Positions 1,830 to 63,706 of a DNA stretch of 64,000 nucleotides are shown here, piece by piece (position 1 is the stretch's first letter; the number at the start of each line of letters is the position of its first letter). The position numbers were made by a program, and so were the translations under genes. The notes under the pieces are model-generated. The model did not search any database. It saw only the letters and a program-made list of their open reading frames with translations, and was not told the origin of the DNA. The stretch is from Pseudomonadota bacterium (GTDB lineage: Bacteria > Pseudomonadota > Alphaproteobacteria > Micavibrionales > CSBR16-224): positions 492,001 through 556,000 of the forward strand of contig CP053449.1 in assembly GCA_013285465.1 (NCBI GenBank). The letters run 5' to 3'.

Positions 1830-4575
<2,746 letters not shown>

Positions 4576-4578
4576 AAA

Positions 4579-5100: not shown

Positions 5101-5829
5101 TTAGCGCTTGCGATTGGGAAAAGCGGCAATCGTTTTTGGCACGCGGCGCGGTACAAGTTGATCACCCAGTGTTTTTTCACGCAGTTCAATCACTTTGGAA
5201 TAGGGGATCGGAGTGGAATCCGCCGGCGTGAACCATTCGTAACGGTATCCTGCGGCGCAGGGATAGCCGTTTTCCTCCGAATCCTTTTTTGATGCGGCAT
5301 TGAAAACGCCGCGCACAGTACGCGGTATGCTGACGACATAGGTATCGCCGTATTTATTATACATGGCCGCTGTTGTCGTATGTTCCAGACCGTAATGCCC
5401 GTTACCGCTGCGTCCTGACGGATCACGCAGATGGTCAGGGTTGGTCGGCACATCTTTTTGGCCTGTCAGTCTTTTGGCAAACAGCGCATAGGTCATCTCC
5501 AGCCCGCTCGGGATATCTTCCATTTTATCATACAGCGCCAGACCTTCCGGCGTGTCCGTATTGATGTCATAAAGGTACACGGTTTTTCCGTCTTTCTCGG
5601 TTTTTTCCTGCATGAATGTCAAAGCGGGATGCGTTGTTTTTTCGGCAAAGCGGAAGGTCGCGTTATAGCGCCCGCCTTTCAAAGACAGCGCACCGTATTC
5701 GCGGGCGATTTCATCCAGCAGCGGCTGCGGGTTTTCACAATCGGCTTCATATTTTTTGATGATCTCAAGCGTGCGTCCGCCTGCAATAAAATGTGCGTAA
5801 TGATCGGAATATTCCTGACCGAATGACAT
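5101..5829 (-). CDS. hypothetical protein, 242 aa
   Basis: I do not recognise this family. The protein is soluble-looking, with no signal peptide or membrane segment. It is rich in aromatic and charged residues and ends in a basic tail (VPRRVPKTIAAFPNRKR). A conserved-looking central block contains RDPSGRSGNGHYG (about 137-149) followed by an aromatic Thr/Tyr-rich stretch. It is preceded by AGAAGG before the ATG and by a good sigma-70-type promoter at 5872-5900. Normal codon usage and regulation signals make it a real gene; its role is unknown. Confidence 0.7.
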   Translation of the reverse strand: MSFGQEYSDHYAHFIAGGRTLEIIKKYEADCENPQPLLDEIAREYGALSLKGGRYNATFRFAEKTTHPALTFMQEKTEKDGKTVYLYDINTDTPEGLALYDKMEDIPSGLEMTYALFAKRLTGQKDVPTNPDHLRDPSGRSGNGHYGLEHTTTAAMYNKYGDTYVVSIPRTVRGVFNAASKKDSEENGYPCAAGYRYEWFTPADSTPIPYSKVIELREKTLGDQLVPRRVPKTIAAFPNRKR

Positions 5830-5871
5830 TTGCCTTCTTCCCTTTTTTGATATGAAAATTATTATATTCCA

Positions 5872-5900
5872 TAAATATGGGGTTTTGGTAGGCTTGTCAA
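5872..5900 (-). promoter_or_regulatory. sigma-70-like promoter for the 242-aa protein
   Basis: On the minus strand, TTGACA (5895-5900) is separated by 17 bp from TATTTA (5872-5877). The start codon of the downstream gene is at 5829, giving a leader of about 35-40 nt with a purine-rich ribosome site. Seen by inspection only. Confidence 0.55.
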
Positions 5901-5912
5901 GTGTGAAAAAAA

Positions 5913-6911
5913 TCAGCGTTTGGGATGCTTTTGCGGTATTTTGTGGTGTTGCAGCAATGCGGCAACCTGGGGGTTTTTGGCGAAACTGGCGGCAAAAACA
6001 CGTTTGCCGCGTATATTGGCGGGGATGCTGTGATTCTGCAGGGCTTTGATGCGTTTGATGCGCTGCTGCTCATCCTGAAAATTTTCGCGAATATAGCGGC
6101 GCATGGCTTTGTCTTTTATATCCTCCGGTGCAGGGGCCAAATCAATATGGTCACTGATGCGGATGGCTTCGATCAACGCCTCCTGATTGGACATGAAAGC
6201 CAGCGAGGTTTGTGCGGGGATGGCGGCAAGTGCCAGCGGACGGTCAGGATTTTGCGGATCCTGCAAAGCACCCCAGACGGCAACATAGGCCAGAGGTTGC
6301 GGGATTTTGACGCCGTTTTGCAGGACCGCCGGCGTATCCAGCAGTAATCCGTCGTAATTCGGTTCGGTACCTGTGATGTGACCCGCGGCTTTTGCATCGT
6401 AAAAACCGATGGTAATCGTGGCGATGGTGCCTTTATCTTCGTGAATGGTCGCAGGGACGGGGCCGCGCGCACCGACAAAAGCGCCGTGAACAACAGCATG
6501 ATCCTCCAGCGTGGCGGGAATGACGCAAACCGCCAGCGGCGTGTCGTCTTCGCTTTTGAAATGATGGAATTTGCGTGCCAGCACTTTTTGTGAGGAATTC
6601 GAACCGATACCGGCAATAGCGACCCGGTCTTTCAGAATATGCAGATTACCGTCCGTATCAGTGATTTCCAGCGTATAGGAAGGTGTTTTACGTTCAGCAT
6701 TGGGGAGTGTGATCTCTTTTCCGGGGGTGATGCGGATATTTTCCGGCGTAAAACTGCGGAAAACATCATGACCGGCTTCATGTGTGAAGAGAAATCCGTC
6801 CTTAAAATCATCATGTTTCACAAGAGGATAGCCAAGTGCGGACGTTTCAAGAGCGTGAAGCTCTTTTTCGCTGAGGGCTTTTTGCCGGAATTTTCTGCGG
6901 ATTCTGCCCAT
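5913..6911 (-). CDS. hypothetical protein, remote gamma-glutamylcyclotransferase-like
   Basis: A 332-residue protein of uncertain function. The middle holds GIGSNSSQKVLARKF (about residues 100-114), VVHGAFVGARGPVPATI and TEPNYDG. This order resembles the gamma-glutamylcyclotransferase-like fold (substrate-binding YGSN-type loop, then a PATL-type strand, then the ExNY segment). The usual Tyr of YGSN is replaced by Ile-Gly, so catalysis cannot be assumed. The N-terminus is very basic (RIRRKFRQK) and the C-terminus is Lys/His-rich. AGGAGG lies about 14 nt before the ATG, a rather long spacing. The gene is divergent from the FecR-domain gene. Confidence 0.6.
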   Translation of the reverse strand: MGRIRRKFRQKALSEKELHALETSALGYPLVKHDDFKDGFLFTHEAGHDVFRSFTPENIRITPGKEITLPNAERKTPSYTLEITDTDGNLHILKDRVAIAGIGSNSSQKVLARKFHHFKSEDDTPLAVCVIPATLEDHAVVHGAFVGARGPVPATIHEDKGTIATITIGFYDAKAAGHITGTEPNYDGLLLDTPAVLQNGVKIPQPLAYVAVWGALQDPQNPDRPLALAAIPAQTSLAFMSNQEALIEAIRISDHIDLAPAPEDIKDKAMRRYIRENFQDEQQRIKRIKALQNHSIPANIRGKRVFAASFAKNPQVAALLQHHKIPQKHPKR

Positions 6912-7017
6912 TACGGGGATTCTCGCCTCCTTTTATTTCTAAAATATATGAAAATCATTAACAAAGTCTTGCATTTGCAGGGTTTTCTTGACGTTTGCGG
7001 CGGAAAAACAAAAAAAT

Positions 7018-7049
7018 GGCGCAGGGTTTTTAAGACTGCTAACGTATTA
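7018..7049 (+). promoter_or_regulatory. shared promoter element upstream of the FecR-domain gene
   Basis: GGCGCAGGGTTTT (7018-7030), a 10-nt spacer, then AACGTATTA (7041-7049). An almost identical arrangement, with the same 13-mer, the same spacer length and AACGTATAA, stands at 32747-32778 in front of the seven-residue-repeat protein. A second CAGGGTTTT lies at 6978-6986. Two blocks with fixed spacing suggest an alternative sigma factor or an activator site; this is inference. Confidence 0.5.
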
Positions 7050-7070
7050 CAGATAGTGGGAGAATTTATT

Positions 7071-8021
7071 ATGAGAAAAATAGCATTTATTTTGATGATT
7101 TTCGCGGTTTTCACGCTGCTGCTGCCTGCTGCGGCCAAAGCAGAGGGGCAGGCAATCGGCGTTTTGCTGGAAATTGAGGGGGCGGCGCATATTACCCGTG
7201 CGGACGGCAGTGTTAAACAGGCTGTGGTTGATGATGAGGTTTTTCTTGATGATGTCATTAAAACCGGCGCAGATGGGCGCGCTTTTTTGTTTTTGATGGA
7301 TGGCACCGAATGGACGCTGTCGGAAAATGCGGTTTTCCAGGTCAATCACTATGCGTTTCATCCGGAAGATCCGGAAAAGAACAAGGCGCGTTATTCCGTT
7401 GTCTCCGGTGCCTTTCGCTATGTCAGCGGCATGATTGCCAAAACGCAGGAACCTGATATTGCGATTGATACCTCTGTCGGCTCGATCGGTATTCGCGGTA
7501 CGGATATTACGGCCGCAGTCGATACGGATGGCGGTTATGATATTTACGTTGATGAGGGCAAAATCGAAGTTGCCAATAACGGCGGTAAAATGTTTTTAAC
7601 GCCGGGGCAGGGAACTTTTGTCAAAAACAAAGGCATTGCACCCTGGCACCCCAAAAAATGGCAGCCGGAGCGTTTGCAGCGGTTGCGTCAGGCCGTTCAT
7701 TTGAAACGCGGCGAGACAATCCGTGCGCGTGCGAAGAATTTGCGGGAAAAACGCAAAGAAAAGCTGAAAAAGCATCTGCAAAAACGTCAGGAAATCTCGC
7801 CGCAGCAACGTGAGCAGTTTAAAGAAAAATGGCAGGAAAAACTGCAGGAACGCCGTGACACACCGCAAGGTGAACGTAAAGGCAATTTGCAGGAAAAGCT
7901 GCAGCAGCGGCGTGAAAATAGCGGACAGAATATCCGGCAGGAAAAACTGCAGGAGAAAATCCGCAACCGCCGCGGAGGCGGTGACGGCAAAGCCATACGG
8001 AAATGGCGCACCAATCCCTAG
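7071..8021 (+). CDS. secreted FecR-domain protein with charged coiled tail
   Basis: A 316-residue exported protein. A signal peptide (residues 1-24, ending AAAKAEG) is followed by a FecR/LysM-like beta domain (about 30-190). The domain has the typical IEGAAHITRADG, LFLMDGTEWTLSENA and SVGSIGIRGTD blocks. From about 200 on the chain is almost purely charged and helical, with repeated EKLQERR-type units (LQEKLQQRR, QEKLQEKIRNRR), likely a coiled coil. FecR domains of this free-standing type are found in periplasmic proteins rather than sigma regulators. The start at 7071 has GGGAG upstream; longer in-frame starts lack support. It shares an upstream element with the gene at 32875. Confidence 0.85.
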   Translation: MRKIAFILMIFAVFTLLLPAAAKAEGQAIGVLLEIEGAAHITRADGSVKQAVVDDEVFLDDVIKTGADGRAFLFLMDGTEWTLSENAVFQVNHYAFHPEDPEKNKARYSVVSGAFRYVSGMIAKTQEPDIAIDTSVGSIGIRGTDITAAVDTDGGYDIYVDEGKIEVANNGGKMFLTPGQGTFVKNKGIAPWHPKKWQPERLQRLRQAVHLKRGETIRARAKNLREKRKEKLKKHLQKRQEISPQQREQFKEKWQEKLQERRDTPQGERKGNLQEKLQQRRENSGQNIRQEKLQEKIRNRRGGGDGKAIRKWRTNP

Positions 8022-8030
8022 AAAGAAAAC

Positions 8031-9203
8031 TTAAGCAGAACGACGACCGGCCGCATCCGTGCGGTCGGTCTTTTTGACCGTACAGTAAGGTGCCAGTTTT
8101 GCGGCGGCGAAACGCACATCTTCTTCTGTTGTATCGCGGCCCATGGAAATACGCAGGGCGCGGAATGTTTCCTCATCCGTGAGGCCGATGGCTTTTAAAA
8201 CACCGGAAGGCTTGCCGCTGCCTGATTTACAGGCCGAACCCGTGGACAGGCAAAGATCATCCGCCAAATCCAGAAGCACATCTTCCGCTGCACAAGACGG
8301 CAGCAGCAGGTTGATTGATCCCGGGATACGCGGGCTGCGTGCGCCGTTGATGCGGATATCATCCGGCAATTCCGACAGCAGCAGATCAACCAGCCCGTTC
8401 AGTTTTTCGGTATATTGCGCCATGCCTGTGCGGGCAATCTCGGCGGCCACACCCATACCGACCGATAGCGCCAGCGGTACCGTGCCCGAACGGCAGCGTT
8501 GCTGTAACCCGCCGTTTAAAACAGGTTCCAGCGAGAGCGGCGGTTTTGTCCGCACATAAAGCGCACCGATACCGCAAGGGCCGTAGAGCTTATGTGCCGA
8601 CAGGCTCAGCATATCAATCTCCGCATCACGGATATCAATCGCTACCTTCCCTGCGCATTGGGCGGCATCACTGTGGAACAATGCGCCATATTCATGTGCA
8701 ACAGCGGCCAGTTCCTTGATCGGCTGCACTGTGCCGATTTCATGATTTGCCGCCATCACGGAAACGATACGTGTTTGATCGGAAATAATCTCCTTTAAGG
8801 CATCGGCGGTGACAAAGCCGTCCTTATTGGCGGGGATGATTTTGACGGTAAAGCCTTTGCGTTCCAGCGCGGGGATGGAGGCCAGAACGCTCGGATGTTC
8901 CAAAGCACTGATCAGGATTTCATGACGCCCGTCTTCGGGGCACAGGCCTAAAAGCGCCGTGTTATTGGCTTCGGTTGCGCCGCTGGTGATGATTAATCCG
9001 CCGGCATCGCAATTCAATAAGGCGGCGATTTGTTCTTTTGCCGTGTCGATGACGGCGGCGGCGGCGCGTCCGTTTTTATGAGATTGTGCATGCGGATTGC
9101 CGAATTTGTCATGGAAATAGGGCAGCATCGCGTCCACCGCTTCGGGGGCGCAGGGCGTTGTGGCGTGGTAATCAAAATAAAGGGGTTTAGGCTGTGCAGG
9201 CAT
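8031..9203 (-). CDS. cysteine desulfurase, NifS4-like
   Basis: A PLP enzyme that takes sulfur from L-cysteine. It has the internal-aldimine lysine in SAHKLYGPCGIG (Lys205) and the persulfide cysteine in STGSACKSGSGKPSG (Cys325); the length of 390 residues is normal. The start at 9203 is chosen because AGGAG precedes it at good spacing; the upstream ATG at 9227 would add eight residues. It overlaps xdhC by 17 bp and is the last gene of the xdh operon. In Rhodobacter capsulatus the desulfurase NifS4 sulfurates the molybdenum cofactor held by XdhC, and this position argues for the same job. Confidence 0.9.
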   Translation of the reverse strand: MPAQPKPLYFDYHATTPCAPEAVDAMLPYFHDKFGNPHAQSHKNGRAAAAVIDTAKEQIAALLNCDAGGLIITSGATEANNTALLGLCPEDGRHEILISALEHPSVLASIPALERKGFTVKIIPANKDGFVTADALKEIISDQTRIVSVMAANHEIGTVQPIKELAAVAHEYGALFHSDAAQCAGKVAIDIRDAEIDMLSLSAHKLYGPCGIGALYVRTKPPLSLEPVLNGGLQQRCRSGTVPLALSVGMGVAAEIARTGMAQYTEKLNGLVDLLLSELPDDIRINGARSPRIPGSINLLLPSCAAEDVLLDLADDLCLSTGSACKSGSGKPSGVLKAIGLTDEETFRALRISMGRDTTEEDVRFAAAKLAPYCTVKKTDRTDAAGRRSA

Positions 9204-10032
9204 TTTTATCTCTCTCCTTTTTGTCATTTTCCGCAGGATGTTTTGCTGCGGATGCTACCAATCCGTTTTGCAGCAATTCTGCGGCGACGGCGATGGCAAT
9301 CTCGCGCGGATGCTTTCCTTTTACCCCCTCGACGCCGATAGGGCAAGTCAGATCGGATAAGCGTTCGGCACTGATACCGTCCGCCTGCAGGCGTTTTTCA
9401 AATTTTGCGCGTTTCGTGTCTGATCCGATCAGACCCAGATAAGAAAAATGATGCTGCTTCAGCGCTTTTTCAACAATCGCATAGTCAAGATCATGGCTGT
9501 GGGTGATGACCAGAATATAGGTGTTGTCTCCAAGATTTTTCAGCTCGTCCACAGGGCCGGCGGTGATGATTTTTTCGACATTGCCGGGCAGCTCTTGCGG
9601 GAATTCATTGACGCGTTCATCAACCCATTTGATTTTAACGGGCAGCCCTTCCAGAACTTTCACAATCTCTTTGCCGACATGTCCTGCGCCGAACAAAACA
9701 AGTGTTTTGCAATTGGCCAGAAACGGCTCCAGCAAAACTGTGACGGCACCGCCGCAGCATTGCGCCAAAGACGGACCAAGGGCATAGTCATGGATTTCCG
9801 GTGCGGCGGCGGCATCTTCCAGCAGTTTTCGCGCCGCTGCAATGGCTTCGAATTCCAGATTTCCCCCGCCGATTGTGCCGAGCTGCTGGAATTGCGTGAC
9901 GATCATTTTTGTGCCGGATTCGCGCGGGGTGGAGCCCTTGGCAGAGACGACGGTAATCAAGACACAGGGCGTTTCATGTTTGCGCAACTCGCTTAAATCG
10001 GAAAGCCAGCGGTGGCTGATATCGGGTTTCAT
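9187..10032 (-). CDS. xdhC: xanthine dehydrogenase accessory protein XdhC
   Basis: Molybdenum-cofactor chaperone that binds Moco, helps install its terminal sulfido ligand and hands it to the XdhB subunit. The 281-residue protein has the XdhC/CoxI N-terminal block (GSTPRESGTKM, then GTIGGGNLE) and SLAQCCGGAVTVLLEP with the paired cysteines. It ends in a Rossmann-like XdhC C-terminal domain (VLFGAGHVGKEIVKVL, LGLIGSDTKRAKFEKRL, CPIGVEGVKGKHPREIAI). The start overlaps the xdhB stop by 4 bp (ATGA) and the end overlaps nifS, indicating translational coupling. Confidence 0.95.
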   Translation of the reverse strand: MKPDISHRWLSDLSELRKHETPCVLITVVSAKGSTPRESGTKMIVTQFQQLGTIGGGNLEFEAIAAARKLLEDAAAAPEIHDYALGPSLAQCCGGAVTVLLEPFLANCKTLVLFGAGHVGKEIVKVLEGLPVKIKWVDERVNEFPQELPGNVEKIITAGPVDELKNLGDNTYILVITHSHDLDYAIVEKALKQHHFSYLGLIGSDTKRAKFEKRLQADGISAERLSDLTCPIGVEGVKGKHPREIAIAVAAELLQNGLVASAAKHPAENDKKERDKNACTA

Positions 10033-12371
10033 GTCAGTTTCCGTCCTTTCCCGTTAATGGCGTTTAAAACCGCTTCGGGCGTTGCGGGGGCATCCAGATG
10101 CGGGATACTGCCGTCAGTGCGTGCGGCGCAAACGGCATCCTTGATGGCAAGAAATGTCGAAATGGCCAGCATAAAGGGCGGTTCCCCCACGGCTTTGGAG
10201 CGGTAGACCGTCTCTTCCGGATTGTCGCCCTTATAAAGTTCAATACGGAAGTCATTTGGAATATCGCGCCCTGTCGGAATTTTATAAGTGCTGGGCGCAT
10301 GTGTTTTTAAGACGCCTTTATCATCCCACCATAATTCCTCGGAGGTCAGCCAGCCATTGCCTTGAATATAAGCGCCCTCAATCTGCCCGATATCAATGGC
10401 AGGGTTAATGGAGCGCCCGACATCATGCAGCAGATCGGCGCGCAGGATATTATATTCGCCCGTCAGCGTGTCGATGATGACTTCCGTCACCGCTGCGCCA
10501 TAGGCAAAATAGAAGAAGGGGCGGCCTTTGGATTTGACGGGATCCCAATGCAGTTTCGGCGTTTTGTAAAAACCGGTGGAGGATAGTGAGACGCGGTTCT
10601 CATAGGCCAGCATAATCAGGTTTTTAAAGGAAATGCTTTCATGACCGCCAAGACGGATGCGGTTGTTTTCAAAGATGACGTCCTCTGCGGGGATGTCGAA
10701 ATGTTTGGCGGCAAATTTTATGAGCCTGTTCTTGATGGTGATGACGGCGGCTTGTGCGGCTTTGCCGTTTAAATCCGTTCCGCTGGAGGCGGCCGTTGCC
10801 GAGGTGTTTGGAACCTTGCCGGTATCTGTCGCGGTGATTCTGACGCGGTCCAGATCAACCTGAAATTCATTGGCGACAATCTGCGCGACTTTTGTATGTA
10901 ATCCTTGCCCCATTTCGGTGCCGCCATGGTTCAGCTGGATACTGCCGTCTTTATAAACATGTACCAAAGCACCGGCCTGATTGAGCATTTTCAAGGTAAA
11001 GCTGATACCGAATTTAACGGGGGTCAGGGCGATGCCTTTTTTCAGGATTTTGCTGTCTGCATTGAATTTGTCAATCGCGGCGCGGCGGGCGCGGTAACCG
11101 GAGGATTCCGCCAAAGCGGGAAGCAGTTCATGCAGGATATTATCTTCGATGATCATACCGTAAGGTGTGGTGCAGCGGTTTTGCAGATGATCTTTTTTGT
11201 CATACAGGTTTAACAGCCGTACATCCAGGGGGTCTTTGCCGAGGCTGCGGGCGATGTTATCAATCATCTCTTCTGCGGCCAGCATGCCTTGCGGCCCGCC
11301 AAAGCCGCGAAAGGCGGTATCGGAGACCGTATTGGTGCGGCAGCGGTAACTGGTGATGCGGACATCTTTCAGGAAATAACCGTTATCGGTATGGAACATC
11401 GCGCGGTCGGCAATCGCATTGGAGAGATCGGGTGACATACCGCAGCGTACGGCATGGTTCATATGCAGACTTTCGATTAAACCGTCATCGTTAAATCCGG
11501 CCTGATAAGAGACGTCAAAAGCATGGCGTTTTCCGGTCAGGGTCATATCGTCATCACGGTCAAGGCGCAGCTTGACGGGGCGTCCGGTTTTCCATGCGCC
11601 TAATGCGGCCACGCAGGCAATCAATGATGCCTGACTTTCCTTGCCGCCGAAACCGCCGCCCATACGGCGTACGCGCACAGTGACGGCATGATCGGAGAGG
11701 AGAAGGGTTTTCGCAATTAAATGCTGCACTTCCGACGGGTGCTGCGTGGATGACCAGCAGGTAAACGTGCCGTCTTCCTCCGGAATGGCCATGGCAATCT
11801 GCCCTTCCAGATAGAAGTGATCCTGTCCGCCGCTTTTGAATGTTGCGGATATTTTATGCGGAGCTGCTGCATAGGCTTTGTCGGCATCACCTTGCTGCAT
11901 GATATGGGTTTCACCGACGAAATCCTGTTTTTCCAGCGCCTCTGCCGTTGTTAGAACGGCAGGTAATTCTTCATAGTCAATAACAGCCATTTTTGCGGCG
12001 CGGCGGGCAAGGGGGATCGTATCGGCAATCACCGCCAGAACGGATTGTCCGGCATAATGCACCTCCTCCTCGGCGAAAATAGGGTCGCCGCCGAAAACAG
12101 GGGCGGCATCATTACTGCCCGGAATATCCTGTGCCGTCAGAACGGCATGGACACCGTCAATATGGCAGGCACCGGTATCGATTTTTTTTATGCGGGCATG
12201 GGCATGCGGACTTTGCAGGATATAGGCATGTAGGCAGCCCTCCGGTTCGCGTACATCATCCGTATAGACGGCTTCGCCGGAAACATGCAATACGGCGCTA
12301 TCATGGCTTTTTGCACTGCCTGCGCCTCCCTTGATCTCATGCGTCATCGGCATCTCTGCGCTATCGGGCAT
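10029..12371 (-). CDS. xdhB: xanthine dehydrogenase, molybdopterin-binding subunit
   Basis: The large subunit that hydroxylates hypoxanthine and xanthine at the molybdenum site. Motifs seen are GGGFGGKESQ, AFRGFGGPQGM, GGTEMGQGLHTKVAQ and the C-terminal AVGEPPFMLA with the presumed catalytic Glu. I choose ATG 12371 (780 residues), which has AAGGG at good spacing and overlaps the xdhA stop by 11 bp. The longer frame to 12470 lies inside xdhA and lacks family similarity. It forms a heterodimer or dimer of heterodimers with XdhA in the cytoplasm. Confidence 0.96.
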   Translation of the reverse strand: MPDSAEMPMTHEIKGGAGSAKSHDSAVLHVSGEAVYTDDVREPEGCLHAYILQSPHAHARIKKIDTGACHIDGVHAVLTAQDIPGSNDAAPVFGGDPIFAEEEVHYAGQSVLAVIADTIPLARRAAKMAVIDYEELPAVLTTAEALEKQDFVGETHIMQQGDADKAYAAAPHKISATFKSGGQDHFYLEGQIAMAIPEEDGTFTCWSSTQHPSEVQHLIAKTLLLSDHAVTVRVRRMGGGFGGKESQASLIACVAALGAWKTGRPVKLRLDRDDDMTLTGKRHAFDVSYQAGFNDDGLIESLHMNHAVRCGMSPDLSNAIADRAMFHTDNGYFLKDVRITSYRCRTNTVSDTAFRGFGGPQGMLAAEEMIDNIARSLGKDPLDVRLLNLYDKKDHLQNRCTTPYGMIIEDNILHELLPALAESSGYRARRAAIDKFNADSKILKKGIALTPVKFGISFTLKMLNQAGALVHVYKDGSIQLNHGGTEMGQGLHTKVAQIVANEFQVDLDRVRITATDTGKVPNTSATAASSGTDLNGKAAQAAVITIKNRLIKFAAKHFDIPAEDVIFENNRIRLGGHESISFKNLIMLAYENRVSLSSTGFYKTPKLHWDPVKSKGRPFFYFAYGAAVTEVIIDTLTGEYNILRADLLHDVGRSINPAIDIGQIEGAYIQGNGWLTSEELWWDDKGVLKTHAPSTYKIPTGRDIPNDFRIELYKGDNPEETVYRSKAVGEPPFMLAISTFLAIKDAVCAARTDGSIPHLDAPATPEAVLNAINGKGRKLT

Positions 12372-54858: not shown

Positions 54859-55707
54859 ATGTTTGCTATGTTACGGTTTAAAAAGGATATTCCGGCGGAA
54901 AACGCCACACTGCGCCATGATATTTATGGCGGCGATGTTTATGTGACACCGCCCTGCACCGGGTCACGCAAACTGGTGTCTTATGCAAAAGACATGATTC
55001 GCGATATTCTGAATGTGACGGATATCCGCCGCGCACATCTTGAGCTGGATGAGGAAAGTTTTTTTACCCGTATCGGAAAATTGCGCCGGACGCTTTATCT
55101 TGCGGAAGATTATCACAAACTGCTTTTCGCGACATTGGCGGAAAACGGTTTTGACCCTGAGCGTATGGCGTTTGATCCTTTGCGGCTGCGCGTTATTTGT
55201 CCGGACGGACATTTAAACAAGAAGGCCGCGCCGGTTTATTTCCCGCATCGTGATACATGGTATGCGCATCCGCAATGTTTGATCGTGTACTGGACGCCGC
55301 TGGATGATCTGGAGGAGGAAGAAACTTTCGCCATTTATCCTGATTATTTTGACCGCGAAGTTCCCAATGATTCCGAAGTCTTTCATTATGATGACTGGAT
55401 CAAGGACGGGCCTGATTTGAAAATCGGCTGGCAAAAACAGGATTCAGGTATGACGGCGACTTATCCGCGTTCCGCCGAAGGTTTTGCGCCAGGGAGGGAT
55501 GTCGGATTTTCCTGTCCGGCGGCAGGGCAGGTCTTTATCTCCGGTGCGCATTATCACGCCACACGCCCGCAAAATACCGGAAAAATCCGTTTCAGCCTTG
55601 ACGCCCGTCTGGTTCATCTGGGGGACGCCGCCGCAGGAATCGGTGCGCCAAATGCGGATAACCGTTCCACAGGTGATATCTTGAAAGATTATATCAAGGC
55701 TGCTTAA
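54859..55707 (+). CDS. putative Fe(II)/2-oxoglutarate-dependent dioxygenase
   Basis: A 282-residue protein with a double-stranded beta-helix pattern. The facial triad is plausible: His130 and Asp132 in YFPHRDTWYAH and the distal His at 231 or 233 in ISGAHYHATRPQ. Arg244 or Arg250 is a candidate for 2-oxoglutarate binding in GKIRFSLDARLV. Substrate unknown. The gene faces the biosynthetic operon and its stop overlaps the nadR-like stop region by 4 bp, so it may be a tailoring enzyme of the same pathway. It starts at 54859 or at the ATG three codons later; the ribosome site is weak. Confidence 0.72.
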   Translation: MFAMLRFKKDIPAENATLRHDIYGGDVYVTPPCTGSRKLVSYAKDMIRDILNVTDIRRAHLELDEESFFTRIGKLRRTLYLAEDYHKLLFATLAENGFDPERMAFDPLRLRVICPDGHLNKKAAPVYFPHRDTWYAHPQCLIVYWTPLDDLEEEETFAIYPDYFDREVPNDSEVFHYDDWIKDGPDLKIGWQKQDSGMTATYPRSAEGFAPGRDVGFSCPAAGQVFISGAHYHATRPQNTGKIRFSLDARLVHLGDAAAGIGAPNADNRSTGDILKDYIKAA

Positions 55708-56669
55708 ACAATCTTCTCTACGGCAGTGACGGCGGCTGTTAATTTTTCATCCCAGCTGCCCGACAGGCGGATATAAGGTTTTTGATCTTCTTCCAGACGT
55801 TTGATGCAGGATTTCATAAAGATGTCCTGTGTTTCAATTCCGTAACGATGGGCATCCTCTTGCCATGCTGCATCTGTGTCCAGCAACAGGTAGAGGTCAT
55901 AACGGTTCTCACGCGCATTGGCATTGAGCCATTCCGGGCATTTTCCCAGCAGCATCTTACTCCAGATCGCCGTCGTCATAATTTCGGTATCACAAAACAG
56001 GACACGCCGCGCCTGATAGACCAGCGCCTCTTCCGAGGCCTTTTGGGCTTGCGCAATCATTTTAAAATCATCCTCGTTTAGGTCGCGTCCGCGGTGCATA
56101 ATCAGCGTTTCCGCATATTCAGGGACGATAACGGTCTGGAAATGCTGTGCCAGTTTTGCCGTTAAGGTCGATTTCCCGGTTGATTCCGCGCCAATGACGG
56201 CGATGCGTTTGACGAAATAAGGGCGGACGATTTCGGGAATGTAATCCCAGTTTTCAGCGGGGTGGGTACGTATATCCGTGCCGCTGGTCGGGATGATGGC
56301 GCGTCCCATATTGCTGGGAACGAATGTGCCGCCCAATGTTTCCGCCAACGGCGCGCCGTAATCTTCCCCCGCGAAAATATAGTCGGGTTTTTCGGGCAGA
56401 ACGCGCATCAGGGCATCATGCCACAGCTGCCAGAAATCAGGATGTTCTTCAGGGAGCTGCGGCAGCTCGTCTGTCAGATGGATGACGTTGCAGTCAGGAA
56501 AAATCTGCCGCATCCAGTCATAGCGCAGTGTGCCGGGGATCGGCTCGTTTTGTAACGAGCAGACGACAATCGACAGTTTATCGACATAATTCTCGGCAAA
56601 ACGCGCAAGATACACATGTCCGTTATGCGGCGGCATAAATTTTCCCAGCAGCATTCCTGATGTTGTCAT
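55704..56669 (-). CDS. NadR-like NMN adenylyltransferase / ribosylnicotinamide kinase
   Basis: A 321-residue bifunctional NAD-salvage type protein without the DNA-binding domain of enteric NadR. The adenylyltransferase half begins MLLGKFMPPHNGH with the HxGH nucleotide motif (His15, His18) and has IIPTSGTDIRTHP. The kinase half has the P-loop VIGAESTGKSTL (about 160-171) and YAETL. The start at 56669 is chosen because AGGAG sits six bases upstream and its ATGA overlaps the NRPS stop. It is the last gene of the biosynthetic operon, a surprising position for NAD salvage. Confidence 0.88.
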   Translation of the reverse strand: MTTSGMLLGKFMPPHNGHVYLARFAENYVDKLSIVVCSLQNEPIPGTLRYDWMRQIFPDCNVIHLTDELPQLPEEHPDFWQLWHDALMRVLPEKPDYIFAGEDYGAPLAETLGGTFVPSNMGRAIIPTSGTDIRTHPAENWDYIPEIVRPYFVKRIAVIGAESTGKSTLTAKLAQHFQTVIVPEYAETLIMHRGRDLNEDDFKMIAQAQKASEEALVYQARRVLFCDTEIMTTAIWSKMLLGKCPEWLNANARENRYDLYLLLDTDAAWQEDAHRYGIETQDIFMKSCIKRLEEDQKPYIRLSGSWDEKLTAAVTAVEKIV

Positions 56670-59431
56670 GCGCATCTCCTGTGATGGGCGGGGCTGGAAA
56701 AAATATGGCGCAGATATAAACGGATCAAATCATCTGACGGCGGCGGACAAGCGATGCCGTAATCGCGTTCGGTTGCGGTGCAGTCAAAACGGATGCCTGT
56801 GGCTTGAAACAAATCCATTGTGCGGTAACGGTCGAAATCGTCAAGGCAGCGGCACAGCGCCAGATAGGCGGCAGATTCTTCTGTTGTCATTTCTTTGTTC
56901 TGAAAGGAGGCTTGCCAGTCTTGTGTGGGGATTTCGCGGATATTGCCGATACTCTCCATCAGCTGTGCGAGTGACAAAGAACCTGAACCGGCAATGTGAT
57001 AAATATCTTCCCGCCCATACAAGGAGAGATGCGCCATGGCCGCTGCCGCATAATCGACAGGGGTGATATCGATCAGTAATTTTTTGGCAAAACCTTCCGG
57101 CACGGAACCCAGACTGCGCATGCCGCGGGAAAACATCTTCAAAAAATCCGTTTCGGAACACAGCCCTGTTTTTGTATCGCCGGTAATCAGTCCAAAACGG
57201 TAATGGGTGATGTCGCAGGATGCGGCGGGGATTTGCAGCAGCATATATTCAGCAGCCCATTTCGTCTGGGCATAACCGCCATAGACAAATTCCGTATTTT
57301 CCAAACGGTCGCTTTCCAGAGCCGTGCCGCTGTTGCGGTCGGTCGCAACGAAAACAGACAAAGTAGAGGCAATATGCAGCTTCTTACGTTTTCCTGTCAG
57401 GGCAAAACGCAAAACTTCCTGTGTGCCGCCGATATTTGCCGCACGTAAAACCTCATATGGCTGTACGACATTCACACGTGCTGCACAATGATAGACGGCA
57501 TCAATATTGCCCGCCAGTTTTCGCCAGTCGCTTGCGGACAGCCCGAAATATTGCTGTTCCAAATCGCCAGTGACGGGCGTGATGCGCGTATCTTTGACGG
57601 GGATGCGGGCAGGGTCGCGGACAAGACAGATAATCTCCGCTGTTGTTTGTTGCAGTAATTCCGTGAGCAGCCGTCCGCCCAAAAAGCCGGTGGCGCCGGT
57701 CAGGAAAATCCGTGCGGGTTCTTTCACTTTTTTTTGCGGGCGCTTTGCTGCCGCCTCAGTCAAGGCCTGCCAGTCACTGTCAAAAGCAACATCCTGCCGA
57801 AGCCAGTCGCAGGGCAGGGCGCCGCTATCATCCGCACGGGCGGCGAGTGCCTGTGCCAGGTTGCGGATGTTCGGATATTGCACCAGTAAGGCGGGAGAGA
57901 TGCGCAGATTTCGCTTTTCTGCGGCAAGGCTGAGATGGATCACGGCAAGAGAGTCGCCGCCAAGGATAAAGAAATCATCATCAATGCCGAAACCGGTTTT
58001 CTTTAAAACGGCAGACCATATCTCATACAGTATTTTTTCCGGTTCCGTTTCCGGCGGTGCTGTGGCGGTCGGTGCGGTTTGTAAATCAAGTTTCCGCAGC
58101 TGTGCAAAATCCGGTTTTCCGGTAACGGTTTCCGGCATTTTTTCCAGCCATGCGATATGCTGCGGCAGCATCCATTTTGGCAGGGTTTTGGATAGATGCG
58201 TATTGATAGTCGTTGTTTTTTTGCCCGCGACAAAAGCAACAAGCGCCTCCGCGCCGCCATGATAAAGCGGACGTTTCAGCACGGCGGCTTTCTTGATTTG
58301 CGGATGGCTGTGCAAACACGCCTCGATTTCTTCGGGGGCGACAAGCTGTCCGCGGAGTTTGAACTGGCGGTCGCCACGCCCCAGAAACTCAATCATGCCT
58401 GCTTCATCTTGTCGCACTTTATCGCCTGTTTTGTAAAAACGCTCCGTGCCGCGCATGATAAATTTTTCCGCATTTAAGTCATCGCGGTTCAGATAGCCGC
58501 GTGCCAGCTGCAACCCGCCGATCAGTAATTCATCATTTTCTATTCTATAAATGACATTGGGAAACGGATTGCCGATCAAAGGCTTGCCCCAGTTATCGGC
58601 ATCACAGGCAATCAGGCTGGTGCAGACAGTTGTTTCCGTCGGGCCGTAAACATTGATAACGCGGTAGGCTTTTGCCCATGCGCGTACCGTATCGGGCGGA
58701 CAAACCTCGCCGCCGATGATAATTGTTTCCAGACTTGCCGGCATATCGTCAATGGCAAGAATGCCCAGCAATGACGGCGGCACATCCATATGGGTGATGT
58801 GTTTTTCCTGCAATGCGGCAACAAGTTTTTTGCCGTCGCGCAATGTGCTGTCATCTTCAATCACCAGCGTTGCGCCGGACAGAAGCGCTGTGCCGATATC
58901 GGAAATAGACGCGTCAAAAGCAATGGACAGATAAAACAGACTGCGGCTGTGTTCATTAATTTGAAACGCCTGAATTTGCGCATCAAGGAAATTCACAATG
59001 CCGCGATGTTCTACCATGACGCCCTTCGGTGTTCCGGTAGAACCTGATGTGTGCATGATATAAGCCAGCCTGTCCGGTGCGGTTTCGGCAGGGGCGGGGC
59101 GGCATCTTTCCGTCGGAATATCTTGCGCCGTTAAAACGGTTTTGATATTTGCGTCTTTTAAAATGAAGTCTTTACGGTCTTTTGGAAGATTTGAAGGAAG
59201 CGGTACAAATGCCGCGCCGGCATGCCAGATACCCAGCAGGGCAATCAGGTAATCAGCTGATTTGTCGATGGCAATGCCGATGATTTTCTCATTATGACTT
59301 TGTCCCAATTGTTTTCCAAGCGCGGCGGCCTGTTCCGACAGAGCGCGATAAGTCAAAGCCGTACCGCGATCCAGCACCGCGATATTGTCAGGGAATTTTT
59401 CCACAATTTTTTGGAAACGCTGCCAGAACAT
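56666..59431 (-). CDS. single-module NRPS: adenylation - carrier - thioester reductase
   Basis: A 921-residue A-T-R protein. The adenylation domain (1-450) has A3 TSGSTGTPKG (128-137), A4 FDASISD (172-178), A5 NVYGPTETT (260-268), A7 YKTGD (333-337), A8 GRGDRQFKLRG and the A10 lysine (Lys439). The carrier domain has LGGDSL with Ser494 for phosphopantetheine. The reductase has GATGFLGG (579-586) and the Tyr720-x3-Lys724 pair. There is no condensation domain. It should activate one amino or carboxylic acid and release it as aldehyde or alcohol. A hand alignment to GrsA gives the pocket D-A-S-D-I-G-V-V-C-K, which I cannot match to a known substrate. Confidence 0.92.
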   Translation of the reverse strand: MFWQRFQKIVEKFPDNIAVLDRGTALTYRALSEQAAALGKQLGQSHNEKIIGIAIDKSADYLIALLGIWHAGAAFVPLPSNLPKDRKDFILKDANIKTVLTAQDIPTERCRPAPAETAPDRLAYIMHTSGSTGTPKGVMVEHRGIVNFLDAQIQAFQINEHSRSLFYLSIAFDASISDIGTALLSGATLVIEDDSTLRDGKKLVAALQEKHITHMDVPPSLLGILAIDDMPASLETIIIGGEVCPPDTVRAWAKAYRVINVYGPTETTVCTSLIACDADNWGKPLIGNPFPNVIYRIENDELLIGGLQLARGYLNRDDLNAEKFIMRGTERFYKTGDKVRQDEAGMIEFLGRGDRQFKLRGQLVAPEEIEACLHSHPQIKKAAVLKRPLYHGGAEALVAFVAGKKTTTINTHLSKTLPKWMLPQHIAWLEKMPETVTGKPDFAQLRKLDLQTAPTATAPPETEPEKILYEIWSAVLKKTGFGIDDDFFILGGDSLAVIHLSLAAEKRNLRISPALLVQYPNIRNLAQALAARADDSGALPCDWLRQDVAFDSDWQALTEAAAKRPQKKVKEPARIFLTGATGFLGGRLLTELLQQTTAEIICLVRDPARIPVKDTRITPVTGDLEQQYFGLSASDWRKLAGNIDAVYHCAARVNVVQPYEVLRAANIGGTQEVLRFALTGKRKKLHIASTLSVFVATDRNSGTALESDRLENTEFVYGGYAQTKWAAEYMLLQIPAASCDITHYRFGLITGDTKTGLCSETDFLKMFSRGMRSLGSVPEGFAKKLLIDITPVDYAAAAMAHLSLYGREDIYHIAGSGSLSLAQLMESIGNIREIPTQDWQASFQNKEMTTEESAAYLALCRCLDDFDRYRTMDLFQATGIRFDCTATERDYGIACPPPSDDLIRLYLRHIFSSPAHHRRCA

Positions 59432-59437
59432 TTTTCT

Positions 59438-60220
59438 TTACGCTCCCGCAGGTTTTTCGGAAATTGTGATGCAGCGGATGGAGGTATCGGGATCAAATGC
59501 GCCGCCCTGCATATCGCCATAGAATTTGATATTCACAAAGCCGGCCCCGGTCAGCAGGTGCGTAATATCTTCCGCCGTATAAAGTTTCGCGCCGCCGCCT
59601 TTGTTTTCCTGATGCGTGCCATCGGGCGCGGTGTAGATCCAGTCCTTGTACACCATATTTGTGTCAGGCTCGTAGCGCGATTCCCAAACTGTTTTATGCC
59701 CGTCTTTTTCCGCGACATCGCGCAAGGTGTTGCTCTGTGCGAAATCCTTCAACACGCGCGCGCCGTTTTTATAGTCAAAGCCAAAAAATCCTCCCGGTTT
59801 TAACGTCTCGAAAATACGCTGCATCATCAGGATGTTTTTATCATCATTCTCGCTGTATCCGAAACTCGTCCACCAGTTGATAGCGGCATCACAGGGTTTG
59901 GACGGCGTAAAATCATAGGCGTTTCCGGTATGAAAGTCGCAGGCCAGATTTTCTGCTGCCGCTTCCGCCTGTGCGCGGGTGATATAGCTGTCAATCAGAT
60001 CAACACCGGTGACATGCAGTCCTTTCCGTGCGAGTGCAAGGCTCAGCGTGCCAAGTCCGCAACCCTGATCGAAAAAACGCATTCCGGCTTTGAGTGATAA
60101 TTTATCCATTAAAAAATCAACGGCTTCATTGACCTCTTTGTCACTGCGCTGCAAACAATGCTGTGCGAACAGATCGTCGTAAAAATCCTGATGCCATGTT
60201 TCCGCTGTGTTTTTGCTCAT
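59438..60220 (-). CDS. class I SAM-dependent methyltransferase
   Basis: A 260-residue methyltransferase with the SAM-binding motif I FFDQGCGLGTLSLAL (49-63), an acidic loop VTGVDLIDSYI, and post-motif LKPGGFFGFDY. The C-terminal half (WESRYEPDTNMVYKDWIY) resembles small-molecule N- or C-methyltransferases. It starts at 60220, overlapping the asnB stop by 4 bp, and ends 6 bp before the NRPS start. Inferred to methylate the NRPS substrate or product. Confidence 0.9.
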   Translation of the reverse strand: MSKNTAETWHQDFYDDLFAQHCLQRSDKEVNEAVDFLMDKLSLKAGMRFFDQGCGLGTLSLALARKGLHVTGVDLIDSYITRAQAEAAAENLACDFHTGNAYDFTPSKPCDAAINWWTSFGYSENDDKNILMMQRIFETLKPGGFFGFDYKNGARVLKDFAQSNTLRDVAEKDGHKTVWESRYEPDTNMVYKDWIYTAPDGTHQENKGGGAKLYTAEDITHLLTGAGFVNIKFYGDMQGGAFDPDTSIRCITISEKPAGA

Positions 60221-62139
60221 GCCGTTTTTTCTGCCAGTCCGAATTTTTGTTGCACCAGATGCGCGGTCAGAACCGTCATTAAAACAGGCTCCATCGCTGT
60301 CCGTGATTTTGCATCCTCTTGCGGCAGTTTGTCCAGCGCGGCAATGATTTTTTTGCGGTTAAAAAACGGCACGGCATTGAAAGACTCGCTACGAATACTG
60401 TCCTGAATAAAGCCGTTTAGCCCGTCATTGGAATAGACGCTGACAGGAGGTGCCATAAAGGGATGCTTCTCGCGGCGGTAAACCCGGTCGGTAATATGCG
60501 GACGAACCGCCTCACGTAGCGCGAATTTTTCCGTCACGCCTTTGATTTTCATCGATAGCGGCATTCTGCACACGGTTTCAAATAAGTGATGATCCAGAAA
60601 GGGCAAGCGGCCTTCAATCGAATGCGCCATTTCCATGCCGTCGCCCAGCGTTTTCAAAATGTAATTGGCCAGTGTGAGTTTGGTCCAGAGATAGAGGGCA
60701 TTATTAACGGGATGTTTGCCTTGCAGCTGTTCCTGCGGCACGGCGCGCATCAAATCCGCATAACAATCCGTTTTGGCAAAATCGTCTTTGTACCGGTCGG
60801 ACAGGATGTGATGGATGCGGTTTCCGAGGGCAGCTTTTGCGGCAAGAAAGGACGGCACATGACCGATACTGTTGGCGACGGCTGCGGTGGGAAGCTCCGC
60901 GCCATAGGCCAGCTGTACGCCGGTGGAAGCCAGATTACTTGCATAGAGTTTTTGCATCTGCAGGGCGGTGTTTTCATTGACCGTGCCTGATGCCAGTAAA
61001 TCCTGCCGCAAATGCGGATAGCCTGCAAAGACTTCATCCGCCCCTTCGCCCGTGAGTGCGACTTTAAATCCGCGTGCGCGGATATGGCGGTTCAGGATGT
61101 ATTTTGCGGCCAGATGGCCGTTTACTGCCAGACCTTCGCCGTAATAAACGGCATCGGGCAGCTCCCGCACCAGATCATCCTGCGAGACATTGACCACATG
61201 CAGATTGGCGCCGTTATGAGCGGCGCTCTCTGCGGCGACGGCATATTCGTCATAGCCGTCATGGGAAAAGCTGACGGTAAAAGCATCAAGAGGCTTGTCG
61301 CTTTCGCTGGCGGCAAGTCCCAGCACGGCACTGGAATCAAGCCCGCCGCTCAGGTGGAAACAGACGGGAACATCGGCACGCAGGCGCAGCCGCACGGCTT
61401 CGGAAAATTTTTCCGCAACGGCATCAACCCATTCCGCTTCGCTGCGGTTATCGGTGTCGGCTTCGGGCAGATAGTCCAGATCCCAATATTTGGAAATTGT
61501 TTTGTGCCCGTTCTTAAAAACCAGCATATGGCCGGGTTTTAACTGGGCGACATTGTCAAATAATGTACGGTCCTGCGGCACATATTGCATCGAGGCGGCA
61601 TGATAGAAGGCATAAGAATCCCAGACCGCGGGAACACCTGCTGCGAATAGCGCCTTTGCTTCGGAGGCAATGAAAAACCCCTGCGCGGTTTCCGCATAGC
61701 AAAGCGGCTTAATGCCGAAACGGTCGCGTGCGGCAAACAGCCATTCCTTGTCATCATCCCATAACAGGAACGCAAACTCGCCGCGCAGATATTGCAGGCA
61801 GTCCGTGCCGTATTCTTCATAAAGATGGATCAGGATTTCGCTGTCTGATCGGGTCGCGAATTGATGACCCTTATCTTCCAGATTTTGACGGATATCTTCA
61901 TAGTTGTAAAATTCGCCATTTACAACGGCGCGGATATGTCCTGTTTCATTGACGAGAGGCTGTTGTCCCGTCGCAAGATCAATAATGGAAAGCCGCGCAT
62001 GCCCTAATCCGGTCTTGCCGTTTTGAGACACCCAAATACCGGTGCCGTCAGGTCCGCGGTGATGCAGCGCTTTCAGCCCTGCCTGCAAATCCGTTTTGCG
62101 GAGGCCGTCGCGCGACAAAATGCCGATTATGCCGCACAT
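60217..62139 (-). CDS. asparagine synthetase (glutamine-hydrolysing) family
   Basis: A 640-residue class II glutamine amidotransferase plus ATP-pyrophosphatase. The catalytic Cys2 follows the start Met (MCGIIGILS). HHRGPDGTG, NGEFYNYEDI and SDSEILIHLYEEYG define the glutaminase half. The synthetase half has the PP-loop LSGGLDSSA and LTGEGADEVFAGYP. It could make asparagine, but its place between an alcohol dehydrogenase and a methyltransferase in a biosynthetic operon suggests amidation of a pathway acid. Its ATG overlaps the adh stop by one base (TAATG). Confidence 0.93.
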   Translation of the reverse strand: MCGIIGILSRDGLRKTDLQAGLKALHHRGPDGTGIWVSQNGKTGLGHARLSIIDLATGQQPLVNETGHIRAVVNGEFYNYEDIRQNLEDKGHQFATRSDSEILIHLYEEYGTDCLQYLRGEFAFLLWDDDKEWLFAARDRFGIKPLCYAETAQGFFIASEAKALFAAGVPAVWDSYAFYHAASMQYVPQDRTLFDNVAQLKPGHMLVFKNGHKTISKYWDLDYLPEADTDNRSEAEWVDAVAEKFSEAVRLRLRADVPVCFHLSGGLDSSAVLGLAASESDKPLDAFTVSFSHDGYDEYAVAAESAAHNGANLHVVNVSQDDLVRELPDAVYYGEGLAVNGHLAAKYILNRHIRARGFKVALTGEGADEVFAGYPHLRQDLLASGTVNENTALQMQKLYASNLASTGVQLAYGAELPTAAVANSIGHVPSFLAAKAALGNRIHHILSDRYKDDFAKTDCYADLMRAVPQEQLQGKHPVNNALYLWTKLTLANYILKTLGDGMEMAHSIEGRLPFLDHHLFETVCRMPLSMKIKGVTEKFALREAVRPHITDRVYRREKHPFMAPPVSVYSNDGLNGFIQDSIRSESFNAVPFFNRKKIIAALDKLPQEDAKSRTAMEPVLMTVLTAHLVQQKFGLAEKTA

Positions 62140-63077
62140 TATTCTACCTCGGGCTCTGTTCCCGGTTTAAAAAACACTTTTGATGTCTCACTGGTTTTCG
62201 ATGCAGCGAAGACGGCGGCAAAGCTTTCCAGATCATGCACATCACCCAGTAGATCATCAACCTGAATGCGTCCTTCGGCCATTAAAGCGATTGCCTCGTC
62301 AAAGGGGCCGTAATTGACAGCCTGCATGGTGACTTCTTTTTTAACGGCAAGGTCAAAACAGATGCCGACCGGCTCATGCTTGCGGCTGCGGATAATCACG
62401 CGTCCGCGCGGGCGGACGGCGCGGAAGATTTCTTCCATTGCGGCCTCTGTCGCCAGTGTTTCGATGGCGAAATCATAAGCGTTATCTTCCAGTTTTTCCG
62501 TTTGCGGGTCATGGATGCTGACATTATCAAAACCGTAGGAACGCATGATGCGCCGGATCAGTTTGGCAAAACGGTTATTGCCGTAAATAAAGCCGCGCTG
62601 TGCGGGAGAAATATCGGCCTTCATAACCGCGAGGGCGGCGGCGACAGGCTCGCTATAGGCACCGTGTTTAAAAGAGACATTTGCGGGAAGCTTATAGACC
62701 GTATTGGCGGGAACGCGGATATATTCGGCAAAGGCACCGTCATGGTTGATTCCCAGCATGGTCGTGTTCTGGCAGCTGTCCTTTGCGCCGGAATTGCAAA
62801 AGCCGCATTTGCCGCAGGGGATAACGGGCATGACAGTCACGCGGTCACCTTTGGCAAAGCCTTGGGCATCCGCTCCGGCATCTTCAACAATACCGGCAAA
62901 TTCGTGGCCGAGCGTAACGGTTTCATTGCCGTTGATTAACCCGTCGGCCATAAAGACATCTGTACGGCACAGCCCTGCCAATGCGATGCGGATAACAACA
63001 TCATCGGCGGATTGCACTTGCGGCTGTTCAATATTGCGGACGGCAACGTCCGTTTTGTCTTTTATCAGGGCGCGCAT
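62139..63077 (-). CDS. zinc-dependent medium-chain dehydrogenase with degenerate cofactor motif
   Basis: A 312-residue member of the zinc alcohol dehydrogenase family. Catalytic zinc ligands are Cys37 (GLCRTD) and His58-Glu59 (LGHEFAG); structural zinc is held by Cys88, Cys91, Cys94 and Cys102. The Rossmann GxGxxG is degenerate: it reads IYGNNRFAKLI (about 165-175). Cofactor binding may therefore be altered or weak. The start at 63077 has GGAG; longer frames into the AT-rich region are unlikely. It is the first gene of the operon. Confidence 0.87.
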   Translation of the reverse strand: MRALIKDKTDVAVRNIEQPQVQSADDVVIRIALAGLCRTDVFMADGLINGNETVTLGHEFAGIVEDAGADAQGFAKGDRVTVMPVIPCGKCGFCNSGAKDSCQNTTMLGINHDGAFAEYIRVPANTVYKLPANVSFKHGAYSEPVAAALAVMKADISPAQRGFIYGNNRFAKLIRRIMRSYGFDNVSIHDPQTEKLEDNAYDFAIETLATEAAMEEIFRAVRPRGRVIIRSRKHEPVGICFDLAVKKEVTMQAVNYGPFDEAIALMAEGRIQVDDLLGDVHDLESFAAVFAASKTSETSKVFFKPGTEPEVE

Positions 63078-63157
63078 CTCTTTAACTCCGTTTTTTCGCG
63101 TGTGTATTTTTATTAACATAAGAAACTTTATTTTCAAACTATAAAATAGATATACGC

Positions 63158-63202
63158 ATTTTGAGCATAAGTAAAGCGTTATTATGCTTATTTTGAGCAT
63201 AA
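63158..63202. promoter_or_regulatory. repeated operator-like motif upstream of the biosynthetic operon
   Basis: ATTTTGAGCATAA occurs twice as a direct repeat (63158-63170 and 63190-63202), exactly 32 bp apart, about three helical turns. The second copy is half of an inverted repeat, TTATGCT (63182-63188) / AGCATAA (63196-63202). It lies between the divergent adh operon and the VOC gene, so a regulator may control one or both. Confidence 0.6.
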
Positions 63203-63268: not shown

Positions 63269-63706
63269 ATGGAACAGCGTATCAGTCTTATGACACTTGG
63301 TGTGTCAGACCTTAAAAAATCCCGCGCATTCTATGATTCGCTGGGCTGGAAAACGGCTTCTGAAGATATGGCGGAAGAAATCGTCGCCTATGATCTGAAT
63401 AATATGACATTGGCATTATATCCTTTCGACAAATTGATGGCGGATGCCAAGCTGACATTTGAAAAACCGCTGCATTCGGCGGTGACGATCGCCTATAATG
63501 TGCGGACGGAAGATGAGGTGGACAGCATATTGGCGGAAGCGGTAAAGGCGGGCGGTATGCTGGTTAAAGCCGGTGAAAAAGTTTTTTGGGGCGGTTATTC
63601 CGGTTATTTTGCCGACCCCGACGGTCATTTGTGGGAGGTCGCGCATAATCCTATGGCACCGCTGGGACCGGACGGGGAATTTCAATGGAAGGGCTGCACG
63701 GCGTAA
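63269..63706 (+). CDS. VOC-superfamily (glyoxalase/bleomycin resistance-like) protein
   Basis: A 145-residue metalloprotein of the vicinal oxygen chelate fold with two beta-alpha-beta-beta-beta halves: MTLGVSDLKKSRAFYDSLGW at the start and SGYFADPDGHLWEVAHNP at the end. The Glu of WEVA is a likely metal ligand. Such proteins are isomerases, dioxygenases or resistance proteins. It is divergent from the biosynthetic operon across a region with operator repeats, so a self-resistance or tailoring role is possible but unproven. AGGAG lies before the ATG. Confidence 0.85.
   Translation: MEQRISLMTLGVSDLKKSRAFYDSLGWKTASEDMAEEIVAYDLNNMTLALYPFDKLMADAKLTFEKPLHSAVTIAYNVRTEDEVDSILAEAVKAGGMLVKAGEKVFWGGYSGYFADPDGHLWEVAHNPMAPLGPDGEFQWKGCTA

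Follow-up and report, generated by a model that had tools for sequence, protein, structure and literature searches.

What does an operon built around a nonribosomal peptide synthetase (NRPS)-like enzyme do with a nadR gene? The question is raised by a stretch of 64,000 nucleotides (the window; positions 492,001 to 556,000 of contig CP053449.1, assembly GCA_013285465.1) from an alphaproteobacterium of the order Micavibrionales, whose genome is a single contig of 2.67 Mb (G000; compared genomes carry the prefix G, compared loci the prefix L). Five co-directional open reading frames on the minus strand, at window positions 55704-63077, encode a zinc-dependent dehydrogenase (adh), a glutamine-dependent amidotransferase (asnB), a methyltransferase (MT), the NRPS-like protein and NadR. 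The original prediction, made from the letters of the DNA, had read them as an operon for a possible undescribed natural product: all five frames are present, Pfam and NCBIfam back every family call, and the literature searched gave no characterised pathway with these genes. The cassette is real and conserved, and it is tied to nicotinamide adenine dinucleotide (NAD) metabolism by two independent lines of evidence, namely the exclusive association of NadR with the cassette, including fusions of its domains to other pathway enzymes, and NadQ-type operators. We give an even chance to the reading that it encodes a dedicated, horizontally spread pathway of the NAD regulon, in which an amino-acid-derived compound would be made into an NAD-like conjugate by NadR.

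The gene set and its distribution

The genes are tightly packed: adh and asnB overlap by 1 bp, asnB and MT overlap by 4 bp, and 6 bp separate MT from the NRPS gene. The NRPS gene and nadR overlap by 10 bp if nadR begins at its first ATG; with a start at its third codon (MTT), which is the start seen in homologues, the overlap is 4 bp. The originally described junctions are borne out, the last of them, the 4-bp overlap with nadR, presuming this third-codon start. The five genes do belong together, but the set as first described was incomplete: it overlooked a tandem operator upstream of adh and a gene for a 2-oxoglutarate (2OG)-Fe(II) oxygenase (282 aa, plus strand, 54859-55707), which is convergent with nadR with a 4-bp tail-to-tail overlap.

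Among 55 genomes of the source group searched with the NRPS, 13 are carriers, and their loci read adh-asnB-(MT)-(oxygenase)-NRPS-nadR as far as the contigs reach. An alignment scan of GTDB contigs found the cassette in Obscuribacterales/Melainabacteria, in Limnoglobus roseus (NZ_CP042425.1) and other Planctomycetes, in Prochloron, in metagenome-assembled genomes (MAGs) of Actinomycetota, Legionella (two), Prevotellaceae (two), Bdellovibrionales and Sericytochromatia, and in Polyangia-type Myxococcota; altogether it spans at least seven bacterial phyla and one phage-like DNA fragment. The original prediction had proposed a look at the surroundings of the NRPS genes most similar to this one, and asnB, MT and nadR are indeed found there. 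In the 22 loci with adequate flanks, asnB is present in 22, adh in 21, the NadR kinase and adenylyltransferase in 20, MT in 19 (the one of L059 is a class-I methyltransferase with a weak match to the cassette family) and the oxygenase in 15; all six genes are found in 14. None of the five partner genes is near the outgroup NRPSs with adenylation, carrier and reductase (A-T-R) domains of the same scan. Recurrence of the set in several phyla goes far beyond what chance would produce, and a merely accidental neighbourhood is rejected.

The cassette NRPSs all fall to the same side of a branch whose support is 100 (Shimodaira-Hasegawa-like approximate likelihood ratio test, SH-aLRT), and related A-T-R enzymes without the gene set form a separate clade. 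Pairwise distances of the NRPS correlate strongly with those of AsnB (0.91) and ADH (0.80). Within the NRPS tree, Prevotellaceae group with an alphaproteobacterial MAG, and Legionella groups with Prochloron and another alphaproteobacterial MAG, indicating horizontal transfer. Flanking genes differ between cassette loci except among close kin. A search of 398 genomes spread over the phylum returned one other NRPS match at an E-value of 1e-100, with 35% identity and a locus that lacks the set within the short stretch available; the cassette is therefore rare and patchy. Carriage on plasmids was considered and rejected: the plasmid matches are other A-T-R synthetases, and the three neighbourhoods inspected lack the set. 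The cassette is also not a known anti-phage system, as PADLOC returned just a generic methyltransferase similarity to mads_2.

One copy appears to be viral. The IMG/VR contig L109 (IMGVR_UViG_3300031998_007288, 11.5 kb) carries nadR-MT-adh-asnB-NRPS in one direction (1131-11514); beside them are T4-like genes, for a family B DNA polymerase and a gp20-type portal protein. This cassette is divergent, with a long branch in the NRPS tree and an unsure exact placement. L109 is a single metagenomic contig; further scans gave no second phage-type contig with the cassette, and no isolated phage carrying it was found.

NadR and NadQ-type operators

The nadR gene (55704-56675, minus strand) encodes a protein of the nicotinamide mononucleotide (NMN) adenylyltransferase and ribosylnicotinamide-kinase type, with a TIGR01526 score of 273 bits, under the curated cut-off of 341. 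Its NMN adenylyltransferase (NMNAT) domain (56220-56663; GKFMPPHNGH, SGTDIR) has the conserved motifs (H/T)xGH and (I/S)SxTxxR at positions 17-20 and 131-136, and its kinase domain (55743-56207; Pfam AAA_28, 4.2e-34) has a conserved Walker A motif (GAESTGKST) and conserved lid residues D274/R277. With the two best solved true NadRs, of Haemophilus influenzae (1LW7) and Lactococcus lactis (6GYE), it shares the two-domain order, HxGH and Walker A, at about 120-135 bits over the full length. It differs from them in its sub-threshold TIGR01526 score, in the absence of a helix-turn-helix domain, in its association with an NRPS, in domains that are duplicated, fused or split, and in the kinase motif EYGR, which is changed to EYA in 24 of 25 cassette NadRs and keeps the G in all seven non-cassette NadRs. 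The change to EYA is compatible with an altered kinase substrate but is no proof of it.

Alignment-based searching of the source order turned up NadR in 12 of the 13 genomes with the cassette, the exception being G005, whose contig breaks off inside the NRPS. None of the 42 genomes lacking the cassette has a match (Fisher p = 3e-11). A role as housekeeping NAD gene is thus ruled out there, and NadR is pathway-specific in this order. The source genome has its own nadD and nadABC.

The original prediction had treated NadR as a plain member of the set, which falls short of what the other loci show. In six genomes (G008, G014, G035, G040, G042 and G047) the NRPS continues from its R domain straight into a C-terminal kinase domain of the NadR type (with a Pfam check made on the fusion protein of G042). 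The second kinase is free-standing beside or near the full NadR in L043 and L026/L040. L059 has an NMNAT-ADH fusion protein and encodes the kinase on its own. Both NadR activities are retained when the protein is split, and each is tied to another pathway enzyme; from its position immediately after R, the fused kinase may well be the recipient of the R product. In L031, L040 and relatives, which have a second kinase, the full NadR has a kinase half with a degenerate-looking lid region and begins its HxGH motif with Thr in place of His, as though the two activities had been divided.

The second line of evidence comes from control. NadQ regulates NAD biosynthesis in alphaproteobacteria, and its published consensus is ttATRCTCannntGAGYATaa (PMC5343134). 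Upstream of adh lie two tandem palindromes on the minus strand, predicted operators 1 (63150-63170, TTATGCTCAAAATGCGTATAT) and 2 (63182-63202, TTATGCTCAAAATAAGCATAA), with 1 and 3 mismatches to that full palindrome. At up to three mismatches the strict palindrome occurs at three places in the whole source genome, two of these being the pair upstream of adh. The third, with 3 mismatches (G000:C1:2067085-2067105), stands shortly before an open reading frame resembling phosphoribosyl pyrophosphate synthetase and is possibly due to chance. The core of the consensus, at up to one mismatch, has eleven sites in the source genome and forms just two tandem pairs, one at adh and the other (1947328-1947366) immediately upstream of nadA in the nadA-nadB-nadC operon. 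A NadQ-like protein with an NrtR winged helix is encoded at about position 780006 of the same contig. Of 11 Micavibrionales-type loci, 8 have sites with at most one mismatch upstream of adh, several of them as tandem pairs or triplets, where the background would give 0.0019 per locus; G042 and G040 have such pairs upstream of nadA too. Outside the Micavibrionales, no NadQ-type sites or strong palindromes were found upstream of the cassette, and a search for riboswitches gave no Rfam match in six loci of other phyla or in the window.

We read the cassette operon as part of the NAD regulon on account of these predicted NadQ sites. The operator consensus, the NrtR-type regulator and the tandem sites at nadABC are as in the NadQ regulon of alpha- and betaproteobacteria, whose members, in the accessible part of the published account, are nadABC, nadE and nadD (PMC5343134); no NRPS operon is named there. 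The operator region is common to adh and a divergent glyoxalase/Fos-like gene (63269-63706); in relatives the operator remains with adh and the gene on the far side varies.

Enzymes of the cassette

The NRPS-like protein (921 aa, 56666-59431, minus strand) consists of A, T and R domains in this order, supported by Pfam AMP-binding, PP-binding and NAD_binding_4 and by TIGR01733 and TIGR01746, and has no condensation domain. The carrier domain (57845-58030; PP-binding) has the conserved phosphopantetheine serine, Ser494, and the thioester reductase domain (56702-57709; TIGR01746 222 bits, cut-off 213) has the catalytic residues Y720/K724, whose YxxxK motif is conserved in all homologues but L059 (Y..R). 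Domain order and catalytic residues are shared with other A-T-R reductases (Lys2-type aminoadipate reductase, carboxylic acid reductase, MxcG), but the cassette NRPS forms a separate clade with its own A code, lacks a condensation domain and, in several lineages, has a C-terminal NadR-like kinase. Its best full-length NCBIfam similarity is to the myxochelin synthetase MxcG; at 460 bits against a cut-off of 2300, and with no condensation domain, an MxcG-type synthetase was rejected. For the priming of the carrier, no Sfp-type enzyme was seen in the source genome; the one 4'-phosphopantetheinyl transferase domain found is of AcpS size (141 aa frame, G000:C1:1800916-1801203).

The ten-residue specificity code of the adenylation domain (58094-59431) is DASDIGVVCK, its positions having been placed on the alignment by those of GrsA. 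It is nearly invariant: the pattern DASD[IVLM]G[VIS][VI]CK holds for all 40 family members (the last position is missing in one fragment), with positions 235, 236, 239 and 322 partly fixed by the search patterns and positions 278, 299, 301, 330 and 331 free of them. One and the same amino acid is probably loaded in all cassette lineages. The literature searched contains no exact match; closest among published codes are DAQDLGVVDK (Glu/Gln) and an Arg consensus with Asp278 and Gly301 (PMC12283262), and the Lys code of BacB is DAESIGSV (PMC3207962). Judged by the code, the substrate would be nearest to Glu/Gln-like and next to basic amino acids.

The adh product (312 aa, 62139-63077, minus strand; Pfam ADH_N 8.8e-28) is a zinc-dependent medium-chain dehydrogenase/reductase which, in the family alignment, keeps the catalytic-zinc residues C37, H58, E59 and E143 and has a family-specific GxNR in place of the Rossmann GxGxxG. 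Its nearest solved relatives are 4ej6 (a putative zinc-binding dehydrogenase), RspB, galactitol-1-phosphate dehydrogenase and threonine dehydrogenase. AsnB (640 aa, 60217-62139, minus strand; TIGR01536 443 bits, cut-off 267) has the glutaminase Cys2 and the SGGxDS ATP loop conserved in 32 members, and is therefore expected to transfer ammonia to a carboxylate. It shares its two-domain architecture with AsnB-like amidotransferases of specialised metabolism, the closest solved relative being the hydroxyamidotransferase 7ylz, and differs from them by cassette-specific conserved residues such as KHPF.APP.

The class-I S-adenosylmethionine (SAM) methyltransferase (260 aa, 59438-60220, minus strand; Pfam Methyltransf_25) is nearest to N-methyltransferase types in a PDB profile search, with matches to 9ri2, phosphoethanolamine N-methyltransferase and glycine/sarcosine N-methyltransferase. 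A further methyltransferase-like protein of no clear Pfam family is encoded near the cassette in L039 (3074-3913), L045 (7828-8403), L046 (5352-6191) and L098 (13715-14542), with a distant relative in L050 (7151-8068); a low-confidence model suggests a SAM-methyltransferase-like fold.

The oxygenase has no Pfam match, but its AlphaFold2 (AF2) model (predicted local distance difference test, pLDDT, 90.5) resembles in Foldseek the PhyH-like 2OG-Fe(II) oxygenases SptF, PtlH, AndA, SnoN and KanJ, and H130, D132, H233 and R244, the HxD...H metal triad and the 2OG-binding Arg, are invariant in the family. The gene, convergent in the source genome, lies within the operon in several other genomes and is fused with MT into one protein in G005. 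Within the source order it is found in 8 of the 13 cassette genomes and none of the 42 others; its distances correlate weakly with those of the NRPS (0.24). It is absent from the whole genomes G003, G008, G035, G042 and G047, and both MT and oxygenase are missing near the NRPS in G003, G042 and L046. As some carriers lack them, the two look like tailoring genes.

A candidate product and its rivals

The gene set, its conservation, the fusions and the operators common with nadABC can be read directly from the sequences; the chemistry is a proposal. The order of reactions given in the original prediction was a guess. In the route that we favour, the A domain would load one fixed amino acid onto the carrier, and in lineages that keep these genes the oxygenase would hydroxylate and MT would (probably N-)methylate it. 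The R domain would free the product reductively as aldehyde or alcohol, ADH would set its oxidation state, and AsnB would convert a carboxylate to a carboxamide. The NadR kinase would then phosphorylate a hydroxyl and the NMNAT domain would add AMP, yielding an ADP-linked, NAD-like conjugate. Its carboxamide and possibly a charged amine would lend such a conjugate a likeness to the nicotinamide side of NAD, as would suit an enzyme derived from NadR. NadQ would switch the cassette on together with nadABC, presumably under NAD shortage.

A bolder version, its chances well below even, is put forward tentatively: the cassette would yield a non-nicotinamide NAD analogue, in bacteria as well as in at least one T4-like phage. 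An amidated amino-acid-derived alcohol from a single-module NRPS, methylated or hydroxylated in some lineages, would be turned by the dedicated NadR into an ADP-linked dinucleotide serving NAD homeostasis or cell/phage NAD conflicts.

Several observations weigh against an NAD-like conjugate made by NadR. The distances of NRPS and NadR correlate weakly (0.25), suggesting that NadR was exchanged more often than the core; no NadR is nearby in L048 and L053, despite long flanks; the operator is confined to Micavibrionales-type loci and absent in three of them; and NadR, keeping the catalytic motifs of true NadR, may still produce ordinary NAD. The best of the alternatives is that NadR is a supply gene, salvaging nicotinamide riboside (NR) to NAD for the R domain and ADH, with an ordinary amino alcohol or aldehyde amide as product and NadQ control reflecting cofactor need. 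The intact HxGH, ISxTxxR-type and Walker motifs, the presence of two redox enzymes and the NadQ-type control all fit; however, very many NAD(P)H-using clusters manage without NadR, and further points against it are the attachment of the kinase to the NRPS C-terminus, its doubling in many members, the NMNAT-ADH fusion of L059 and the change from EYGR to EYA. The NR transporter PnuC was not noticed among the genes common to the loci, which were not searched for it by name. We regard this explanation as unlikely.

Less probable still is that NAD or NMN serves as building block, with an amino-acid-derived piece being joined to the pyridine nucleotide. Altemicidin biosynthesis, a specialised pathway likewise tied to NAD, is a precedent (PMC11610977), and NadR and NAD regulon membership would suit such a route, but the conserved genes of the loci include no pyridoxal phosphate enzyme similar to SbzP, having NadR instead, and to induce an NAD consumer alongside nadABC under NAD shortage would be an odd logic.

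That the cassette is an ordinary secreted antibiotic or siderophore cluster with incidental housekeeping genes is improbable. A-T-R enzymes do occur in such clusters and the similarity to MxcG points that way, but the MxcG score and the missing condensation domain argue against it, as does the finding that NadR is not housekeeping in the source order. Among the loci compared no conserved exporter, receptor or resistance gene was found in or beside the cassette, and the cassette has no conserved transporter or regulatory gene; the 'natural product' of the original prediction, understood as a secreted antibiotic, is not upheld, and the product may stay inside the cell.

Very improbable, finally, is an alternative NAD route, with NRPS and ADH building a ring precursor, AsnB amidating a pyridine precursor to its carboxamide and NadR completing NMN/NAD: the operators common with nadABC and the presence of NadR and an amidotransferase would fit, but the set includes no phosphoribosyltransferase, no ring chemistry is known that would give this outcome, and nadA is kept in most cassette genomes, the source genome included, so that a replacement of de novo NAD synthesis was rejected. 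Carrier G008 (99% complete) has no nadA match, and neither do the less complete G002 and G047; such carriers might depend on salvage.

For the family as a whole, the near-fixed amino-acid code suggests that Micavibrionales, Melainabacteria, Planctomycetes, Legionella, Prevotellaceae, Bdellovibrionota, Myxococcota and others all make the same conserved product. Through the fusion of a NadR-type kinase to the NRPS and the nadABC-type operators, nonribosomal chemistry becomes linked to NAD metabolism; the literature searched contains no such link. If the product is indeed an NAD-like conjugate, it would found a class of nucleotide metabolites of its own, clearly relevant to NAD-based immunity and to the biology of predatory and intracellular bacteria.

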